The notes under the pieces were generated by a model. It saw only the letters and a list, made by a program, of their open reading frames with translations, ran no database searches and was not told where the DNA came from. A program made the translations under genes and the position numbers. A stretch of DNA of 20,287 nucleotides from a virus: positions 1 through 20,287 of the IMG/VR virus record IMGVR_UViG_3300006916_000530, one strand, 5' to 3'. Shown piece after piece: positions 1,639 through 18,623 of the stretch (position 1 is the stretch's first letter; every line of letters begins with the position of its first letter).

Positions 1639-3840
1639 TTATGAACTTTTTTGCCGTTGTAGCTCTACTTTTTGTTTTTCAACATCTAGTCGTGCCCGGT
1701 CAATCTCGTCCTTTCGCCCATTTCCATCGGCGTCAGAAGTAATTTTAGTAGCCAAGTCCATCTTCTTTAATTCAAGCTGCAGGCTACGGTCCTTCTGCTT
1801 TTCACCGGCTTCGAAGTCCTGTTTTTGCTGGGCCATTTGCTGCTGTGCTTGAATTTGCGCCTGCGCTTGCTGTTGCTGTGCCTGAGTTTGCTGCTGCTGC
1901 ATCTCTTTCTGCTTCTGATCCACCTCTGCCAGCAAGGATTTAATCTTACTGAAGTTATTGCTATCAAGAATTTCAGCGATTGTACCTGGCTGCTGCCCAT
2001 TTTGAGCCATAGCTTGTGCAAGACCCTTGAGCTGCTGGAGCTTGTCTTGCTCCCGGCTGTTGTTCTTGACAAACACGCCATACTCAGCCTCTTGGTACTC
2101 GTCTGGGTCAATAGATAGAAGTGCTGTACGCAAATCGCTTGTCACATACGTCATCTTCTTGCCTTCGCGCCACGCAATCTTGCTGGTATCAAGCAATCCT
2201 AAGTATTCGCGCTCAATAAAGTTCTCGAATCGGCGGAACAGCTCCTCTGAAATAACAGATGACTGGAAAATAGCGCGTTCAGTAACACCAACACCGTCAG
2301 ATGTCTTGACTTGACCCTTACGCTGACGGCTGACCCCAATCATTTCTTCCCACTCAGACTTAATTGCTTGCAAAAGCTGGAATTGCGCCGCGATATACTG
2401 ACCAAGCGACATATCAAGTACCTGATACTGGTTGAACGTCACGCGTTCATTGTTCTTACCCTCTGCCGTTGAGTCAATGAATGCAAATCCCATAGCATCT
2501 GCGTAGTACATGAACTTCTCCTCGTCCCAACCATGACGCTTTGGGATGGTATTCATCTCCATAAGCATAATCTTGTCCTTGTTCTTGGCAATAGACAGCT
2601 CTAAGCGGTAATGGAAAACGTTATACAGCACCTGGTATGGTAAGCCCATGCTAATAACACTGATGTTGTCGCTATGCCGGTTACTGTACACACGACCATT
2701 GTACGGCAGCTTACAGACAGACACGTTGTTCATCTCATTACGCTGCACCGGATGCGGTTGAGCAGTAACATAGATATCCTTGTCAATCTGATACCCCTCC
2801 CACACTTCGTTAACCCAGTAGTAGGTGATTTCCTCACCATCCGACTTCTTGTAGCTTTCATCTACAACAATCTCCTGCTCCTGGCCCAGCTCATCAGTAA
2901 ACGTAAGAATACCTACACGACTGAAAGACTTCCAGCATACGTGTAACACCTCAACCATGCGGTCGGACTCGTCATCCTCAGGCTTATTGATAAACATGCT
3001 CTGAACTCCACCATAACCATCACGCGATTTAGCGGTAGGCATTTCCAGTTGATCAATGTCTTTAGAAGAAAGCACATCATAGAAACGATCGACTACCTGG
3101 TTGATGCTCATGATCTGCCGGCGAACTACCCAGTCCGCATCTTCAATGAACTCGGTGTCTGGCCCCTTCTCATAGTCAATGTCCAAAGGAGAAACCACAT
3201 CAAACTCCACATCATTCATGCAGACATCCTTGTAGGTGTAGCACTCCCCCGCCACTAGCCAATCAAAGAATAACCTCTGTGACTTATCCTCGAAGTTGAG
3301 CCAGTCAAAGAGGTAATTCAATACTTCTTGTCCAATCATTGCTCGGCTGTCCCGGTAGCCCGTCATAACCTGCTCCATATACTCTTCGGGAGCTGGCATC
3401 TCTTCGGATGGTAGACCGGTCTCTAACCCCTGTGCATTCGCTTCGTTGATGAACAGCTGCTCAAGATACTCCCGGTATTGTTCCGACCGGTACTTATCAA
3501 AGCGCGATTCGATATCAGCATTCCGTACAACCACCTGGTATGACATAGGACGCTTGGCCTTTTCTCCCAAAAGCAAGTCTACAATAGGCTTCAGTACATT
3601 GTAGTTACGCAGACGTGCAGGAAAGTTCTTCTTTGACCACGCCTCACTGTTATAAGGATTGGTGACGTAGTTGTAGTCAGCCTCACGGATATTGCCGTTA
3701 TAGGCTTCGTAATAAGTCTGAAGCGTATGTTTCGTGCTCGTGCTGAAAGACGAACGGTTAATGAATGCACGAATGCACTCCTTAGCCCATTCTTTTGTCT
3801 TCCTAGACCGCGCGATTTTTTGTTTTGGAATTTGGTACAT
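1639..3840 (-). CDS. Portal protein
   Basis: This 733-residue protein follows the large terminase by 11 bases on the same strand. The N-terminal half has the features of portals from crAss-like and related Bacteroidota phages: a segment NVLKPIVDLLLGEKAKRP near residues 84-101, a helical insert with FINEANAQGL, and a conserved region around VAGECYTYKDVCMNDVEFDV. The dodecameric portal sits at one head vertex, is the docking site for the terminase motor and is the channel for DNA. After about residue 640 the protein becomes strongly Gln-rich (QQQQ, AQAQ runs) with a coiled-coil and charged tail, a likely barrel or flexible extension. Its length is within the large portal class. Function is assigned from context and sequence appearance, not from a search. 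Confidence 0.85.
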   Translation of the reverse strand: MYQIPKQKIARSRKTKEWAKECIRAFINRSSFSTSTKHTLQTYYEAYNGNIREADYNYVTNPYNSEAWSKKNFPARLRNYNVLKPIVDLLLGEKAKRPMSYQVVVRNADIESRFDKYRSEQYREYLEQLFINEANAQGLETGLPSEEMPAPEEYMEQVMTGYRDSRAMIGQEVLNYLFDWLNFEDKSQRLFFDWLVAGECYTYKDVCMNDVEFDVVSPLDIDYEKGPDTEFIEDADWVVRRQIMSINQVVDRFYDVLSSKDIDQLEMPTAKSRDGYGGVQSMFINKPEDDESDRMVEVLHVCWKSFSRVGILTFTDELGQEQEIVVDESYKKSDGEEITYYWVNEVWEGYQIDKDIYVTAQPHPVQRNEMNNVSVCKLPYNGRVYSNRHSDNISVISMGLPYQVLYNVFHYRLELSIAKNKDKIMLMEMNTIPKRHGWDEEKFMYYADAMGFAFIDSTAEGKNNERVTFNQYQVLDMSLGQYIAAQFQLLQAIKSEWEEMIGVSRQRKGQVKTSDGVGVTERAIFQSSVISEELFRRFENFIEREYLGLLDTSKIAWREGKKMTYVTSDLRTALLSIDPDEYQEAEYGVFVKNNSREQDKLQQLKGLAQAMAQNGQQPGTIAEILDSNNFSKIKSLLAEVDQKQKEMQQQQTQAQQQQAQAQIQAQQQMAQQKQDFEAGEKQKDRSLQLELKKMDLATKITSDADGNGRKDEIDRARLDVEKQKVELQRQKSS

Positions 3841-3851
3841 CCGAATGCGAT

Positions 3852-5861
3852 TTATGAGAAGAAGGCTCGATCAAAAAAAGTATCACTGCTGGCTTGCTCT
3901 ACAACCTGTACTTCTTTAGTATGCAAGTCCTTAAGGTGGAACATGCCTACCATTAGTGCTGAGACGCGGTCAAAGTTGCCACGGCGATTGTACTTTACTA
4001 GCTCATCTATTAGTGCAATATCATATATTTGATGCAAATTGAGCTTTACTTCGCCTGCCTCATTGCGTCCACGTGGAGTTTTGAGCCAGTCTCGTAGGTA
4101 TATCTCTGCCTGACCTTTACGTTCTTTACTACCCATGCTCATACCGTAACTACGGCCCAGCTTGCGTATACGAACATTGTCAGTCTTGTCAAAGATTTCT
4201 ACTTCCGGTAGGAGCTGCTGCATAAGCTTGTGACGCTTAGCATAAGGAATAATTTCCCCCCGGTCATTCTCAAATCCTATACGAGCATTAAAGTACTTTG
4301 ACAACAAAAATAGTGTATTGTTGTATTCATCCTGCGTATCCGGCCTACCGATATACGAAGCCACAATCATATCGTCCGGTTGACTGATGCTATTAACACG
4401 CTTTATTACATACGCTGCGCCCAGTGATTGCCCGCGCCCATCTTGTGCGTAGGGGTCATGTGCAATGATGTACAAGTCACGCGGTACTTCACCATTCTCT
4501 TTATAGGGAGACTGGTAAACAACTACACAACCTGTGGTATCATCACCTCGTTGCGTAGGAAATTTAGTTACAGGTCTAAGCCTGTCGTCCGGCTTGAGCT
4601 TTACCCCTGACTTGGTCTCTACCAAATGTCCAGCTACTGCTAAGGACTTAAACATACCGCTGCGCATCAACTCATTCCGCCACTCCATAAGGGTTGCGGT
4701 CGGGAAGATGTTGCTTGTATGCTGTAAGAAAGCTTCTTTAGGCGTAAATGGATACTCAGTGATGTGTTTATCCAACACGCCGGCATCCTTTGCGTCACGT
4801 TTGATTTGCTCACGTGTAGCTTCTTCGGACTGACGCGCTCCAGCTACATCGCTGTTACCGTCATGATCCATGTGCCCAATCTTATTGATATACGATGGGA
4901 AGAAGTACCCACAAGTGGTATGGTCTGCTCCCTCGTCCCAGATATTGGTAATCGGTAGAAGGTTGTATGCCTCAGGGTTATAGAACATACTCTCGAAGTC
5001 TATCGTACCCCCAGCCATATCACCACCCGTACCGAAAAGAATCATCTGCCCCGTGGTGATACCCCCGTCCTCTACAGTAGGCTTGGTAGCCAGGTACGAC
5101 GCTTTGAGATTGTCAAAGGCACCGCACTCTTCAAAAATGACAATGGAGGCATCTTTACCACGAGCAGCGTCTGGGTTATCCTTAAAGGTAATGGCCTCTA
5201 CTTCTGACCTGTAGCCCTTCTCGACTTGCTGCCCCGACATATACTCCAAGTAGCTAGCTTTCCTATGGTTCTGTTTATCAACAACTTGACGCCGTTTTGC
5301 CCAACCGGTATGCTCATTTAAGAAGTTCATGTTGTCCGTAACCATTGCCATAATACCTTTAGGGTACAAGTACTTCTTGTCAAACGCGCAAAGAAGGGTA
5401 TAGCTGTTACGTTCCGTATTGAACGTGTTGGTAACGAGTGCAGCATTCTTATAGGAGAAACCCTTACGACGCGCCTTACCTACGATCATATGACGCCCAC
5501 CATCCATATGAGCCTCGTCTACCCTAGTAGACAGGTTCAGCCGTTCATACTCTACTGGTTTGATCCCGTTACGGGCTATTTCCTGCAACCAGAAGTATTC
5601 ATAGTCCCCATCCCAGAAGTTGGGAAAGCTGAGAATCTTTTTGTTACCCTTGTCAGTCAGCTTTATCTGTACGTAGTTCAGATAGAAGTAGTGGTGACCG
5701 GTGATGGTTACGTCACCTATAGAATACCCGTTAGTACAACGGCGTAGCTCTTCTGCCCAATACTCATAGTATGCGGCACTGCCCTCCGGGTCGCCACAGT
5801 AGAAGCCGTGCTGTAAAAAATGCTTCGCCGATTTACTGAAGTCTGTTGTGTTGGTCAGCAT
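3852..5861 (-). CDS. terL: Terminase large subunit (TerL)
   Basis: This 669-residue protein is the packaging motor. The N-terminal ATPase shows an adenine-binding region near FPNFWDGDYEYF (79-90), a deviant Walker A GKARRKGFSY (128-137), a Walker B strand ending IVIFEE (240-245, with Glu-Glu rather than Asp-Glu), and a coupling motif LFGTGGD (275-281). The C-terminal RNase H-like nuclease has AHDPYAQD (467-474, metal-binding Asp469), GFENDRG (529-535) and FDRVSAL (630-636, Asp631). All catalytic elements are present and the length is normal for this class. The start ATG overlaps the stop of the preceding gene as ATGA, implying translational coupling. The portal gene follows after 11 bases. 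Confidence 0.93.
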   Translation of the reverse strand: MLTNTTDFSKSAKHFLQHGFYCGDPEGSAAYYEYWAEELRRCTNGYSIGDVTITGHHYFYLNYVQIKLTDKGNKKILSFPNFWDGDYEYFWLQEIARNGIKPVEYERLNLSTRVDEAHMDGGRHMIVGKARRKGFSYKNAALVTNTFNTERNSYTLLCAFDKKYLYPKGIMAMVTDNMNFLNEHTGWAKRRQVVDKQNHRKASYLEYMSGQQVEKGYRSEVEAITFKDNPDAARGKDASIVIFEECGAFDNLKASYLATKPTVEDGGITTGQMILFGTGGDMAGGTIDFESMFYNPEAYNLLPITNIWDEGADHTTCGYFFPSYINKIGHMDHDGNSDVAGARQSEEATREQIKRDAKDAGVLDKHITEYPFTPKEAFLQHTSNIFPTATLMEWRNELMRSGMFKSLAVAGHLVETKSGVKLKPDDRLRPVTKFPTQRGDDTTGCVVVYQSPYKENGEVPRDLYIIAHDPYAQDGRGQSLGAAYVIKRVNSISQPDDMIVASYIGRPDTQDEYNNTLFLLSKYFNARIGFENDRGEIIPYAKRHKLMQQLLPEVEIFDKTDNVRIRKLGRSYGMSMGSKERKGQAEIYLRDWLKTPRGRNEAGEVKLNLHQIYDIALIDELVKYNRRGNFDRVSALMVGMFHLKDLHTKEVQVVEQASSDTFFDRAFFS

Positions 5862-6424
5862 CAGTCTTCGAATAAGCCTTTCTTGCCCCCACCTTTAATA
5901 CGCGTATCGTTTGATTCTTCTTTGCGGACCTTTTCTTCAAGGGTTGAGATGTTTTCGATGGCCTTGGGGAGCTTCTCAGAGATTTCAAGCATGCGCGTAA
6001 CGGAGCGTACCACAGGGTCAATGTCTTCCAACTCAGGATCAGCAAGAGCAGCATCAATGCGCTCACGTAGCGAATCGATAAGGCGACTGCTCGTGAGAAG
6101 ACCTTCCCGAATAGACGTAAGACTCTTAAGAGTGGGAGTCTTCGAGAGTTCCAAATACTTTGTAATAGCTGCTTGTACTTTTTCATCCGGCTTATAGGTT
6201 TCACCCAACCCGGTGTCTACAGATACGCGTAAGCGCCGCTCGTCCTCCGGGTAGATGTAGTATGGCGACTTGTGGTCGTGGTTGAAGTAGATGTAGCTGA
6301 ACTCCTTCAACGCTTCTTTCTTGTCCTTAGTCCGGTCACGTGTGAGCAACGCTTTGAACTCGGGTATAAGCTTCAGCTCGGTATCTACTACCACCTTAAA
6401 ACTTTCTTCTCTGAATAACCGCAT
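5861..6424 (-). CDS. Conserved gene directly upstream of TerL; possible small terminase subunit
   Basis: This 187-residue protein is coupled to TerL by an ATGA overlap. The first ~75 residues carry a pattern I associate with proteins in this position in Bacteroidota phages (IPEFKALLTRDRTKDKKEAL, then FSYIYFNHDHKSPYYIYPED). The rest is strongly helical and charged, with a probable coiled coil at about 125-175 (ISEKLPKAIENISTLEEKVR) and a Gly/Lys tail GGGKKGLFED. Small terminase subunits are often helical oligomers encoded just before TerL, so that role is plausible. However, there is no clear helix-turn-helix, and a head-completion or regulatory role is equally open. Confidence 0.6.
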   Translation of the reverse strand: MRLFREESFKVVVDTELKLIPEFKALLTRDRTKDKKEALKEFSYIYFNHDHKSPYYIYPEDERRLRVSVDTGLGETYKPDEKVQAAITKYLELSKTPTLKSLTSIREGLLTSSRLIDSLRERIDAALADPELEDIDPVVRSVTRMLEISEKLPKAIENISTLEEKVRKEESNDTRIKGGGKKGLFED

Positions 6425-6629
6425 TGTTCAACCGGTATAGACGGGTGGGTTTGACATAGAACTTGCCCAGGTAGGGAAGGCGTACTTGACTGAACGCTCC
6501 GTGTTCCATGTGTTTGCGTACAAACGCGAATTGACTCATGACTACTTCAGCTACTTCCTCGTACGTGCCACCATCCTCTTCAATAATCTCTTGGATTATC
6601 TCTTCCATCAGTTTACTCGGTCGTGGCAT
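6396..6629 (-). CDS. HU/IHF-like small DNA-binding protein
   Basis: The protein has 77 residues. An N-terminal helical half (residues 1-40, KLMEEIIQEIIEEDGGTYEEV) leads into a beta segment FSQVRLPYLGKFYVKPTRLY (46-65). A pattern of charged helices, then a Gly/Asp turn, then V-x-L-xx-(L/F)-G-x-F-x-V and basic residues is the hallmark of the HU/IHF fold, in which the beta arm grips and bends DNA. The full arm and terminal Pro of canonical HU (about 90 residues) are not obvious, so this is a short relative. It overlaps the next gene by 29 bases and the previous one by 17. Placed before the terminase, it may help condense or present DNA for packaging, or act as a small terminase component. Fold assignment is by eye. 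Confidence 0.6.
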   Translation of the reverse strand: MPRPSKLMEEIIQEIIEEDGGTYEEVAEVVMSQFAFVRKHMEHGAFSQVRLPYLGKFYVKPTRLYRLNNAVIQRRKF

Positions 6630-6816
6630 AAATGAAGTAGGTTATTGCGTAGTGTTCGGGGCCTATGGCTATCTCAGTATCGTAGGAAATGTTCTGACCT
6701 TCTAGCTCAGCAGCCATCTGCAGCTCAAAAGCAAAGAGTATATCGAGACGTTGAATCTCATACTCCAGCCTGAAGAGCGCTTTCGGTGACGACGAATTTG
6801 AAGGTAAGTGACTCAA
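6613..6816 (-). CDS. Small hypothetical protein
   Basis: This is a 67-residue open frame between the winged-helix gene (59-base overlap) and the HU-like gene (17-base overlap). The sequence has a central helix LFRLEYEIQRLDILFAFELQ and a C-terminal beta-like segment ending YAITYFIYATTE. No family is recognised. The frame is kept open exactly across the gap between its neighbours and begins with ATG, which supports a real gene in this overlapping operon. A later internal Met (MAAELEG) could be the true start and would remove most of the overlap. Confidence 0.5.
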   Translation of the reverse strand: MSHLPSNSSSPKALFRLEYEIQRLDILFAFELQMAAELEGQNISYDTEIAIGPEHYAITYFIYATTE

Positions 6817-7111
6817 GATTTCCTTTAGGTTTAACGATGTCGTTGTATCGATACACCCCGTGGTCGTCCTTGTAAATTACTTTCTTATCCTTTAAGCTCT
6901 TGACGTAGTTGTTCAAAACGCTAACGCTCTTGAAGTTCATAGCTTCGGCTACGTGCTTCCTGGCGTGCATACTACAGGCTACGCTTGAGTCGTACTCTAA
7001 AAACAATAGTAACGAGTCCAACTCACGGGGAGTCAGCTTCAAGATACCATTTAATAGTTCTAGGTAGTGGCGAGTAAAACTTTTCTTACTTGTTTTGATC
7101 TCCAGCTGCAT
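6758..7111 (-). CDS. Winged helix-turn-helix DNA-binding protein
   Basis: The protein has 117 residues. After a short N-terminal strand (MQLEIKTSKKSFTRHYLELL), residues 21-90 read as a winged helix: LTPRELDSLLLFLEY, then RKHVAEAMNFKSVSVLNNYV as the recognition helix-turn-helix, then SLKDKKVIYKDDHGVYRYND as the beta wing. The pattern 'L-T-x-R-E ... NNYVKSLKDKKVI' is typical of small phage and plasmid regulators of the MarR or RepL type. It could control the late operon it sits in, or be a DNA-recognition subunit for packaging. It overlaps its neighbours on both sides, so it is part of one transcript. Confidence 0.65.
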   Translation of the reverse strand: MQLEIKTSKKSFTRHYLELLNGILKLTPRELDSLLLFLEYDSSVACSMHARKHVAEAMNFKSVSVLNNYVKSLKDKKVIYKDDHGVYRYNDIVKPKGNLESLTFKFVVTESALQAGV

Positions 7112-7391
7112 TCTCTTGGTATTTGTTCACGCGATCAATCTTACGGTTCAAGCGCTTCTTGAGCAGCACTCGGACTTGTTTCAGTAAGATGATGCAACAC
7201 TGATTCTCTACAGAGAAGTTCTTATTCTGCAAAGCATATAGACGATCGATGAGCATGCTCACAACCTCTTCATTGGTCGTGCCTGGGTTAAAACCAACAG
7301 GTGTCTTCTCTGTGAAGCGTACTGTCTGGTACTCAGTTTCTGACTTGAAGTTGTGCAGCCGATACTCTATCCCGGGCTTGACAATTTCCAT
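7086..7391 (-). CDS. Acb2/Tad1-type hairpin domain protein, candidate anti-CBASS sponge
   Basis: This 101-residue protein has a short beta-like N-terminus (HNFKSETEYQTVRFTEKTPV), then the segment GTTNEEVVSMLIDRLYALQ (37-55), then FSVENQCCIILLKQVRVLLK and a basic end RLNRKIDRVNK. Two long helices with 'G-x-T-N-E-E-x-x-x-x-L-I-D-R-L ... EN ... I ... L ... R ... R ... R-V' is the pattern I know from the Acb2/Tad1 hairpin family. Acb2 of phages T4 and PaMx33 is a small helical protein that forms oligomers and traps cyclic nucleotides made by CBASS defence enzymes. Known members usually end with a short motif of the type R-V-x-G; here it is R-V-N-K, so ligand binding may differ. A structural helical protein with a chance likeness remains possible. 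It is co-transcribed with terminase genes. Confidence 0.6.
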   Translation of the reverse strand: MEIVKPGIEYRLHNFKSETEYQTVRFTEKTPVGFNPGTTNEEVVSMLIDRLYALQNKNFSVENQCCIILLKQVRVLLKKRLNRKIDRVNKYQENAAGDQNK

Positions 7392-7421
7392 GACATTTTA
7401 TTTCCCCGAAATATAGGAATA

Positions 7422-7697
7422 TTATACGTCTGCTTCAGCAGTCTCCCGGAACCTCCGCTTATTATAGATTTTCTTAGTTACCATCTCTCGCTCCTCTATG
7501 GTAGCAATGGCATTGTAAAAATCCTCGTCCAGCTTACGAATCTCAACCAAGAACTGAAACCAAATCTGTTCAGCAGCTTGCGGGTTGGTCATATCGTACC
7601 TAGACTTAGTACCCATATTAGCTTGGATACATGCATTGATCTCTAATAGAGCATCAATCTTCTTACGCACTGAAGCGTCCTTGTAATACTTACTCAT
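7422..7697 (-). CDS. Small helical hypothetical protein
   Basis: The protein has 91 residues and is almost wholly helical: MSKYYKDASVRKKIDALLEI, a short turn with NMGTKSRYDM, then QIWFQFLVEIRKLDEDFYNA and a basic-acidic tail KRRFRETAEADV. No catalytic or binding motif is visible. It is second in the minus-strand operon, after a 57-residue gene and 30 bases before the Acb2-like gene. It may be an early-acting accessory protein or a head component. Coding is supported by clean ATG-to-stop boundaries that fit between its neighbours. Confidence 0.6.
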   Translation of the reverse strand: MSKYYKDASVRKKIDALLEINACIQANMGTKSRYDMTNPQAAEQIWFQFLVEIRKLDEDFYNAIATIEEREMVTKKIYNKRRFRETAEADV

Positions 7698-7903: not shown

Positions 7904-8041
7904 GTACAAAGTTAGGGCAATATGCTTTTGAGTACCACCCTACTTATGACTCCCCCGGTAGACCCGACATTGACGACACCCCAGTCTTGTGCGGGTGGAT
8001 TGCCCACCGCAAAGCACACCGAAACCCCCAAATACACTATC
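7904..8041. promoter_or_regulatory. Divergent intergenic region between late and early arms
   Basis: This 138-bp region separates the first leftward gene (start 7903) from the first rightward gene (ATG 8042) and should hold promoters for both arms. On the minus strand, CAAAGTTA at 7907-7914 reads TAACTTTG, an exact fit to the Bacteroidota -7 consensus TAnnTTTG, but it lies only three bases before the leftward ATG and has no good -33 partner. On the plus strand TACTTATG at 7941-7948 is one base off the same consensus, also without a -33 element. The region could also encode an N-terminal extension of the rightward gene from ATG 7922 or 7946. Confidence 0.4.
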
Positions 8042-8440: not shown

Positions 8441-8483
8441 AGCTACGTGCATGCGCCTACCAGCGTGTGTGCGTAGCTTTTTA
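8441..8483 (+). terminator. Strong intrinsic terminator
   Basis: AGCTACGTGCATGCGC (8441-8456) pairs along its full 16 bases with GCGTGTGTGCGTAGCT (8463-8478), counting G-U pairs, across a six-base loop, and is followed directly by a T run (TTTTTA from 8478). This ends the transcript of the 8042-8386 gene. Confidence 0.88.
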
Positions 8484-11379: not shown

Positions 11380-11557
11380 GCAAGTATTAAGGGTTATGCA
11401 TAGTAGCTAAAGATGTGGGTTTCCAGTTGTACATACCCGCAGGCAGTAGTAGTCTACGTTTACAGGCCCTCCGCACCTGAACCAAAGCGGACCAATGGTA
11501 ACTCATTGGATTGAAAAGGATGGAGGGCTGGCAGGGATGCCGGCCCTCTTACTTTTT
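11380..11557 (+). ncRNA. Candidate free-standing small RNA of about 175 nt
   Basis: The stretch lies between a promoter-like site and a strong terminator and has no convincing gene. Predicted stems follow one another: TGTGGGT/ACCCGCA (11414-11420 with 11435-11441), TCCGC/GCGGA (11470-11474 with 11487-11491), CCAATG/CATTGG (11492-11497 with 11504-11509), then the terminator stem. GCCCTCC (11466-11472) can also pair with GGAGGGC (11522-11528), which would break the terminator, so a regulated read-through element is an alternative to a plain small RNA. Read-through on the plus strand would run antisense through the basic-protein gene at 11549-11857. Confidence 0.4.
11523..11557 (+). terminator. 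Strong terminator in a convergent position
   Basis: GAGGGCTGGC (11523-11532) pairs over 10 bp with GCCGGCCCTC (11539-11548), with one G-U pair and a six-base loop, followed by TTACTTTTT. The T run overlaps the last codons of the minus-strand basic-protein gene. Read on the minus strand the stem is followed by CATCCTTTTC, so it may stop transcription from both sides. Confidence 0.82.
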
Positions 11558-11857
11558 ACGCGTACTCTTACGCTTGGCAGAGGGCTTACGTCCCTTCTTC
11601 ATGCCATTACGAGCACGGTTCTTAGACTGTGACTCCATCACAATCTTACCACCTCGCGTATGACTGGCGTCTTTCTTGTCGCCATTGCCATACGTACCAG
11701 CGCGCCGGTTAGCTCTGTTAGCCTGGACGCGCTTCTTTACAGCGGATCGTTTCTTCTGATACTCTGCATCGTACTTCTTCTTCTTTGCGATACTCCTCGC
11801 AGTCATGCCGCGCTTCTTATAGACGCGGCCCTTACCAGCTAGTCGATTACGTGCCAT
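11549..11857 (-). CDS. Very basic conserved phage protein with YGNGD-K-D-SH motif
   Basis: The 102-residue protein is about one third Lys plus Arg. It begins MARNRLAGKGRVYKKRGMTA and has a central KKKYDAEYQKKRSAVKKRVQ. It then has the block RAGTYGNGDKKDASHTRGGK followed by ESQSKNRARNGMKKGRK. I recognise 'R-x-G-T/N-Y-G-N-G-D-x-K-D-x-S-H ... E-S-x-S-K-N-R-A-R-N' as a motif common in uncharacterised small proteins of many environmental phages, often near head or packaging genes. No function is proven for it as far as I know; a DNA-binding or packaged internal protein is likely from its charge. Here it stands alone on the minus strand, embedded in rightward genes, with its own terminator and a shared upstream region. 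Confidence 0.75.
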   Translation of the reverse strand: MARNRLAGKGRVYKKRGMTARSIAKKKKYDAEYQKKRSAVKKRVQANRANRRAGTYGNGDKKDASHTRGGKIVMESQSKNRARNGMKKGRKPSAKRKSTRKK

Positions 11858-16980: not shown

Positions 16981-17395
16981 CCCACGGGAATACCCTGGTG
17001 TCTACATCTACTGGCAAGGCTGTGGCGACAGCGGAGGCATTGACGACATCCACTTCCTAAGTAAGGAGGGACTCGAGTATGCCAAACGCCAAGACTGTGC
17101 GCCTCCCCGTTGGCTTTCACGAAATGATGGACCTAACGGGCCAGAAAAGATGTACGCCTGTCATACCGTTCGCAATCAGTGGGACAACCAGGAGCGGCTT
17201 GTACCTATTGCAGGTAATCACCGCCACGAGTTGACTATTGACCAGTGGGTGTACGAACACTTTGACGTGTGTGAAATCAATGACGGTGGCTTTGCTCACT
17301 GCTTTATTGAGATGCCGCATGGTAAAGTGTGGGGTAACAGTTACAACTGGGTGCAGACGGAGGAAGAAGTTCGCTACGATCGCTATGAAGATTGA
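16916..17395 (+). CDS. Hypothetical protein (possible DUF6878-type)
   Basis: The protein has 159 residues. It has an early strand VYIYWQGCGDSGGIDDIHFL (29-48), a Cys/aromatic middle, then DQWVYEHFDVCEINDGGFAH (108-127) and an acidic end. 'Y-x-G-x-G-D-S-G-x-I' followed later by 'W-V-Y ... E-I-N-D-G-G-F/Y' is a pattern I have seen in small phage and bacterial proteins of unknown function; DUF6878 is my best guess at the family name, held with low certainty. It lies between the DUF6915-like protein and the SF2 helicase, overlapping both. Confidence 0.6.
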   Translation: MNKIPREVLDAVEDLYKNSQVDPREYPGVYIYWQGCGDSGGIDDIHFLSKEGLEYAKRQDCAPPRWLSRNDGPNGPEKMYACHTVRNQWDNQERLVPIAGNHRHELTIDQWVYEHFDVCEINDGGFAHCFIEMPHGKVWGNSYNWVQTEEEVRYDRYED

Positions 17396-18623
17396 TCAGC
17401 GGCGACTGAAACGGCAGCAGGAGGTCATTGATAAATGGACTAAGGCAGGGCGGCGAGGCACGCTTGAGGCAGTGACGGGTTTTGGTAAAACGTTCGTCGC
17501 CCTCCTTATCCTCCAAGAGATGAATGAGAAGCTACCTACAGGTACTTCTCTCATCGTAGTGCCGACACAGAATCTCAAGCAGCAGTGGGAGGAGAGCATC
17601 GAGAAGATGCACATCACCAATGCTACAGTCATGGTTATCAACAGCGCTGTGAAAATGAATCACAACGTCGACTTGTTGATACTTGACGAGATTCACAACT
17701 ACATGTCTGAGGTGTTTCGTGGTATCTTTGGGTGTACCGAATACCGATATATCCTCGGGTTGACTGCAACCCTTGACGCTGAAGACCCTAGGTTTCACGT
17801 CATCAGTCAAGCCGCTCCGGTTATCGATACGATCACCTTGCATGAAGCTGTGCGCAACGACTACGTGTCACAGTTTCAAGTCTTCAACCTCGGCCTACGC
17901 ATGAGCGAGAACGAGGAGAAGAACTACAAACTGGTAACAGACGACTACTACAAAGCGTTTGCTATCTTCAACAACCGGTTTCATGCAGCTATGCGCTGTA
18001 TGCAAGACCGACAATACCTGTCCGTATTCACTAGAAACTTGGCAGGATGGGACGAACAACAGGTACTAAACCAGGCCCGTGCGTTCAACCGAGCCATGCA
18101 GAAGCGTAAGCAGCTCATCTACAAGAGTGCTACTAAGCGTGAAGCAGCAAAGAAACTCATCGAGATATTTGATGTACCCACCATCACCTTCTCCGAGAGT
18201 GTAGACTTTGCCATTCAAATGAATAAAGAGACGCAGCCTTGGGGTGCAGCATATCATTCAAAGATGTCTAAGTACGCTCGCCAGAACGTCTTGGATTCTT
18301 TTGCTGACCTTCGGACAGACACACGTGTAATTCATACTGCACGTGCATTGGACGAAGGGTTTGATGTAAAAGGTATAGAGCTGGCTATTGTGTGTTCCGG
18401 TACGAGCACACCTCGACAAGATTTGCAACGGACTGGCCGTGCAATCAGGTTCAAGGAGGGCAAGACCGGAGTTATTATCAACCTTTATCTGAAAGATACT
18501 CAAGATGAAAAATGGCTTAAGAAGCGGCAATCCAAGTCCGCGAACGTCCAGTGGGTCTGGTCCATTGAGGAACTTCTCACTAAGTGCAACAACTCTCTAC
18601 TCCGAAATCCTATTGCTGGTTAA
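17385..18623 (+). CDS. SF2 DNA/RNA helicase (DExH type)
   Basis: The protein has 412 residues from ATG 17385, chosen because the frame upstream of it (from 17238) only shadows the previous gene. The motifs are all in order: Q-like start KIDQRRLKRQQEVIDKW; Walker A VTGFGKT (30-36); motif Ia VVPTQNLKQQW (58-68); DEIH box (101-104); motif III GLTATL (125-130); and in the second RecA domain a motif V region ALDEGFDVKGIELAI (321-335) and motif VI QRTGRAIR (348-355). This is a compact UvsW/RecG-like or RAD25-like phage helicase without accessory domains. It probably remodels replication or recombination intermediates. It overlaps the previous gene by 11 bases. Confidence 0.9.
   Translation: MKIDQRRLKRQQEVIDKWTKAGRRGTLEAVTGFGKTFVALLILQEMNEKLPTGTSLIVVPTQNLKQQWEESIEKMHITNATVMVINSAVKMNHNVDLLILDEIHNYMSEVFRGIFGCTEYRYILGLTATLDAEDPRFHVISQAAPVIDTITLHEAVRNDYVSQFQVFNLGLRMSENEEKNYKLVTDDYYKAFAIFNNRFHAAMRCMQDRQYLSVFTRNLAGWDEQQVLNQARAFNRAMQKRKQLIYKSATKREAAKKLIEIFDVPTITFSESVDFAIQMNKETQPWGAAYHSKMSKYARQNVLDSFADLRTDTRVIHTARALDEGFDVKGIELAIVCSGTSTPRQDLQRTGRAIRFKEGKTGVIINLYLKDTQDEKWLKKRQSKSANVQWVWSIEELLTKCNNSLLRNPIAG

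Follow-up and report, generated by a model that had tools for sequence, protein, structure and literature searches.

Sponges that sequester nucleotide immune signals are usually described as accessory genes of phages, gained and lost over time. The two closest described types, Tad1 and Acb2, have in common the helical hairpin of the Acb2/Tad1 Pfam family; the published Tad1 layout comprises strands β1–β4 and two long helices, whereas Acb2 is composed of one short and two long helices and lacks a β-domain (PMC12043709). The Tad1 homologues that have been tested have the known ligands in common, and the C-terminal RGVEGT tail belongs to the stretch lining the ligand pocket (PMC12043709). The phiKZ Tad1 blocks both CBASS and Thoeris and, according to a review, is injected by the phage (PMC13282480). 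Tad1 proteins (CbTad1, 7uav/8smd/8kbf; CmTad1, 8kbb; SBSphiJ7 Tad1; phiKZ gp184) share with the 101-residue protein described here an N-terminal β-domain, predicted in the latter, followed by two long helices, and within these a QxIxF-like strand, a G-(x)TNE motif, an EN pair opening helix 2 and an R/K pair near the helix end.

The window, by which we mean the whole stretch of DNA analysed here, is a 20.3-kb virus record (20,287 nucleotides) with a Tad1-like gene at 7086–7391 on the minus strand, an ATG-initiated ORF of 101 codons plus stop that was assigned from the ORF itself, PHROG_2428, hhalign and fold matches. A preliminary description of this DNA had pointed to the ORF and its motifs, and had placed it upstream of the terminase on the same strand; both hold, including the gene order down to the large terminase subunit (TerL). 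The gene is overlapped by 26 nt by the start of a gene for a 117-residue winged-helix-like regulator (6758–7111), so called from its position, as the counterpart of crAss001 gp13, and from a weak match to a PHROG repressor (E = 0.035). Downstream on the same minus strand lie a 67-codon gene with no assigned function that is present in part of the relatives (6613–6816), a gene for an HU/IHF-like DNA-binding protein (6396–6629; PF00216, E = 2.1e-4, just under the cut-off), a gene for a 187-residue protein that is a conserved TerL neighbour in crAss-like phages (5861–6424; phrog_16390, E = 1.4e-5) and occupies a place similar to that of crAss001 gp16, and the genes for TerL (3852–5861; phrog_6681, E = 4.8e-146) and the portal protein (1639–3840; phrog_6547, E = 1.2e-125, and PF16510), both matching crAss-like PHROGs. 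TerL matches 165 records, nearly all of crAss-like or Flavobacterium/Cellulophaga phages, the best being a Flavobacterium phage at 39% identity. The window is from a crAss-like phage, probably of a Bacteroidota host, this host being the most likely one because all three relatives of the Tad1-like protein in bacterial and archaeal assemblies sit in Bacteroidota bins. A parallel in gene position is found in the Bacteroidota phages Cellulophaga phi17:2 and phi4:1, whose Tad1-family proteins gp072 and gp070 (phrog_2428, 7e-32) are also encoded a few genes upstream of TerL; their TerL is distantly related to that of the window, the neighbouring genes differ, with no winged-helix or HU gene found, and, unlike the window protein, gp072 and gp070 keep the RxxxR...GT ending.

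Kinship with Tad1 emerges from family-specific profiles. PHROG_2428, identified as the Tad1 family by its matches to a CbTad1 fragment (5e-25) and to SPG24 Tad1 (2.6e-48), matched the window protein at E = 1.3e-5 and was matched by all 29 diverse members of the window subfamily. This family still carries an unknown-function label in PHROGs v4. A search of the PDB with the single sequence ranked Tad1 first at E = 0.059, and with a profile built from a 29-row alignment Tad1 chains were the only entries under E = 0.1 (best, 0.005). In hhalign comparisons with 13 phage Tad1-family proteins the subfamily scored 94.6–95.2% probability (E = 7e-8/3e-8), with about 30% identity over 65–67 aligned columns, and all 12 scrambled controls, in which columns were reversed or shuffled, remained below 1%. 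The Pfam hairpin profile against which the preliminary description had proposed to check the protein, PF24729 (Acb2_Tad1_hairpin), was not reached: it gave no match to the window protein at E values up to 1 and does not figure in the list of families matched by the 29 subfamily members, so that kinship is established through family-specific profiles, a bridging sequence and structure only. Weak Pfam matches to Katanin_con80, PemK/MazF and ACP53EA differ between members, lie far below the cut-off and were set aside as chance.

The monomer is predicted to have the Tad1 layout of a β-domain and a two-helix hairpin. AlphaFold2 models computed from the 29-row alignment, with no templates, reached a pLDDT of 84.9, the five agreeing models scoring 80–85; an earlier model from 13 near-identical sequences (pLDDT 70) is superseded by these. 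Residues 1–39 (7275–7391, minus strand) form a predicted N-terminal β-domain as in Tad1, with strands at residues 2–5, 9–13, 21–26, 28–30 and 33–35, and shorter than its Tad1 counterpart. It is followed by helix 1 of the hairpin (residues 40–57, NEEVVSMLIDRLYALQNK; 7221–7274), whose GTTNEEV motif is invariant in the subfamily alignment A2, and by helix 2 (residues 61–98; 7098–7211), both helices being placed by alignment and AlphaFold2. In a Foldseek search of the PDB, ranks 1–11 are exclusively Tad1 (probability 1.00, E = 2.4e-4 to 0.03), with query TM-scores of 0.51–0.59 to the Tad1 chains, and the first entry other than Tad1 appears at E = 0.84; the named top viral fold matches include ‘Acb2/Tad1 hairpin domain’ proteins. 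The two-helix pattern recognized earlier corresponds to a predicted hairpin, and residues 1–38, overlooked in that description, make up a predicted β-domain and no loose leader. The label ‘Acb2/Tad1-like’ is right as to the superfamily, which profiles, fold and bridging sequence narrow to Tad1; its Acb2 half falls away, since Acb2 proper is ruled out by the predicted β-domain and by the lack of any Acb2 among the sequence or fold matches.

A direct link between the two families is provided by a protein from a Bacteroidia assembly (L173:5001–5312). Its first half resembles the window protein (KPGxxYxLxN...GTTNEEVIxMLIDRL; 35% identity over residues 1–80, 6e-13), and its end is that of a canonical Tad1 (RETALAITKxEESLMWLEKRTADRKKRGVEG), with E = 3.7e-12 to CmTad1 and 60% identity to SBSphiJ7 Tad1 over the hairpin. 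Even this bridge reaches only 25.3 bits with PF24729, and phi17:2 gp072 reaches 23.6 bits, against a cut-off of 27. A second bridging Tad1-family protein is encoded at L174:3983–4297. Both bridge genes lie on contigs that are viral or linked to Bacteroidota, and neither has a TerL cassette nearby; the L173 assembly also encodes a pair of adjacent CD-NTase (SMODS) domains. In a phylogenetic tree the bridges group with the crAss-like clade (support 99/95), which is monophyletic (100/99) and sits on a long stem, long branches making these groupings and the finer points of the tree unsafe. Homology of the 101-residue protein to Tad1 is secure.

CbTad1 contacts gcADPR through R57, F82, N92, R109 and R113, and the residue types at these positions fit the PDB chain once the numbering is shifted by one. 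The profile alignments pair N92, R109 and R113 with N63 (7203–7205), R80 (7152–7154) and K84 (7140–7142; all minus strand) in helix 2 of the window protein, each of which is invariant in alignment A2 and, by inspection, is also kept in the more divergent members L210, L219 and L172. Across the Tad1 set itself the arginines matching R109 and R113 are invariant; the R113 counterpart in the window subfamily is a lysine. F82 aligns with a leucine, L54, and the alignment of R57 to the window protein is uncertain. The arginine ahead of the EN motif is lost, one residue being missing there (REN to V/A/S-EN). The RGVEGT tail is missing as well, a longer helix standing in its place; the departure from R-V-x-G noticed earlier is real and extends throughout the subfamily. 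An RGVxGT tail is usual and not invariant in Tad1 homologues, being degenerate in AerS_266, and so is typical of the family without defining it. From these alignments the charged part of the pocket seems to have been kept and its walls changed, and the loss of the tail and of the REN arginine, together with the F82-to-leucine replacement, suggests a changed pocket or ligand spectrum.

The Tad1-like ORF is a real gene under strong purifying selection, because it has many intact relatives and a low dN/dS. A first search of IMG/VR returned 35 relatives at 78–100% identity, and 184 were confirmed once a profile was used, with identity reaching down to about 54% among the 80 of these that were kept; in a set of 50,697 phage records, tblastn gave no match to either the window protein or one distant member. 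The dN/dS values against eight relatives are 0.036–0.063, about equal to those of TerL (0.030–0.055 where computable). Of the other cassette genes, just TerL and, for the most part, the portal are conserved to this degree, and the HU-like and winged-helix neighbours change faster. Directly upstream, a 91-codon gene with no assigned function (7422–7697, minus strand; dN/dS 0.18–0.32) evolves several times faster than the rest of the cassette and may be a rapidly changing accessory or counter-defence gene.

The position of the gene is as constant as its sequence. The order Tad1-like, winged helix, (67 residues), HU/IHF-like, 187 residues, TerL was found in 118 of the 119 loci in which the region is covered, and the lone exception begins inside the winged-helix gene; part of these loci came from searches with the Tad1-like gene, and those found through TerL give the same picture. 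Every relative with a TerL at least 55% identical to that of the window carries the Tad1-like gene at the head of this block, which runs on from TerL to the portal, where the slot is visible. The gene is lacking from the next clade out, in all 13 loci with TerL 37–42% identical. Profile searches of the upstream genes likewise found none in the same slot of Fpv3, crAss001, p-crAssphage, phi14:2, phi38:1, cr118_1, cr113_1, DAC15 and cr107_1 (cr3_1, L093, was left out), and the slot had none in 13 Fipvunavirus-like loci. The slot proteins of cr113_1 (L092:769–1146) and cr118_1 (L091:1706–2107) may, judged by eye, also combine β-strands with a hairpin; kinship in sequence is undetectable. The Tad1-like gene is thus an invariable core gene of one crAss-like clade, with a fixed place adjoining the packaging genes that distinguishes it from described Tad1 genes. 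Because a block of similar make-up lacks the gene in the named crAss-like phages, its acquisition probably dates to the base of the clade and took place in a variable slot preceding the regulator.

Judged from its sequence and modelled fold, the 101-residue protein is likely to be a divergent Tad1 sponge of nucleotide immune signals. It would assemble as Tad1 does, into a hexamer of three dimers, and sequester small nucleotide signals made by the Bacteroidota host, gcADPR of Thoeris and/or the cyclic di- and trinucleotides of CBASS, so that the effectors would stay untriggered. The missing RGVEGT tail and the unreached Pfam hairpin model count against this reading. More tentatively, a single capture by the clade ancestor may have given rise to a core protein with a changed pocket that sequesters a not-yet-known Bacteroidota signal, or that travels in the virion and enters the cell along with the DNA.

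Universal presence and a dN/dS as low as that of TerL are unusual for an arms-race gene, and a housekeeping role fits them equally. The protein could have lost the binding of immune signals after capture and now have a function in the packaging or late regulatory module, such as scaffolding, forming part of the virion or partnering the winged-helix regulator whose gene overlaps its own. In favour of this account, which we regard as unlikely, are the single fixed place of this core gene, a level of conservation close to that of the portal and above that of the adjoining genes, a dN/dS of 0.04–0.06 like that of TerL, the 26-nt overlap, the long stem that follows the bridge proteins in the tree, and the loss of the tail and one aromatic pocket residue. 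Against it, the residues that correspond to the charged ones of the pocket do not vary within the clade, and the vicinity of packaging genes does not oppose sponge function, since sponges can be virion-borne, as in phiKZ. The altered pocket (F82 to L54, R113 to lysine, tail absent) could instead mean that the protein sequesters or senses some other nucleotide signal, such as that of another Bacteroidota defence system, in place of gcADPR or the CBASS ligands; the known ligands common to the tested Tad1 homologues (PMC12043709) make this improbable. An unrelated two-helix coiled-coil protein merely resembling the hairpin, for which the unreached Pfam profile and the single-sequence E value of 0.059 might speak, is very improbable given concordant profile–profile, fold, PHROG and bridge evidence with negative scrambled controls, and is refuted in practice by L173.

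What is new here is a divergent Tad1 subfamily that lacks the classic tail and is unseen by Pfam, a sponge-family gene kept in every visible member of a crAss-like clade and constrained like the terminase. We found no literature linking crAss-like phages with Tad1 or anti-CBASS sponges, in a search that took in a minority of subscription papers. If the protein does bind immune signals, these Bacteroidota phages would be under near-constant pressure from second-messenger defences; otherwise, it would be a case of a sponge turned core phage protein.

A Tad1 sponge in this phage may have a promoter of its own and act early, or ride in the virion as reported for phiKZ Tad1. The contention in the preliminary description that the gene lies apart from early genes is unsupported: it is the third gene of the leftward transcript, and many relatives have a Bacteroidota-type −7 box upstream of it. 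In the window, consensus matching places TATATTTC, one base off the −7 consensus TAnnTTTG, just ahead of the start codon (7408–7415, minus strand), and a second box of this type, TAACTTTG, at the head of the leftward transcript (7907–7914, minus strand); of 13 distinct relatives, 6 have the latter box in exact form. Within 100 nt upstream of the Tad1-like start, at distances of 10–83 nt, an exact TAnnTTTG occurs in 26 of 60 distinct relatives, which share ancestry and are not 26 independent cases, against a background expectation of ~0.04 per region. These boxes suggest host-type promoters. A sigma-70 promoter scan was uninformative, as expected for Bacteroidota.

Several Tad1 homologues of unrelated phages are annotated as structural (phiKZ 184, Lactococcus 1706 orf71, Bacillus CM1 and Bacillus P59), and gp280 of 201phi2-1 was detected by mass spectrometry (homologues of these two kinds at L165:2527–3219, L162:5869–6222, L166:323–922 and hits H173 and H175); carriage of sponges in virions may be common. 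Because of these homologues and the injection reported for phiKZ, a virion-borne sponge is, by analogy, a fair option for the window phage.

Elsewhere in the window, a 16-pair hairpin followed by a T run (8441–8478, plus strand) resembles a terminator among small rightward genes. A very basic 102-codon ORF on the strand opposite to its neighbours (11549–11857, minus strand; KKKKYDAEYQKKRSAVKKR...GGKIVMESQSKNRARNG) appears to encode a genuine small phage protein. For the helicase encoded at 17238–18623 (plus strand), the best-matching NCBIfam family is that of the Dnd restriction helicases (E = 1.4e-31), with a score far short of the cut-off, and the protein is probably an ordinary phage SF2 helicase.
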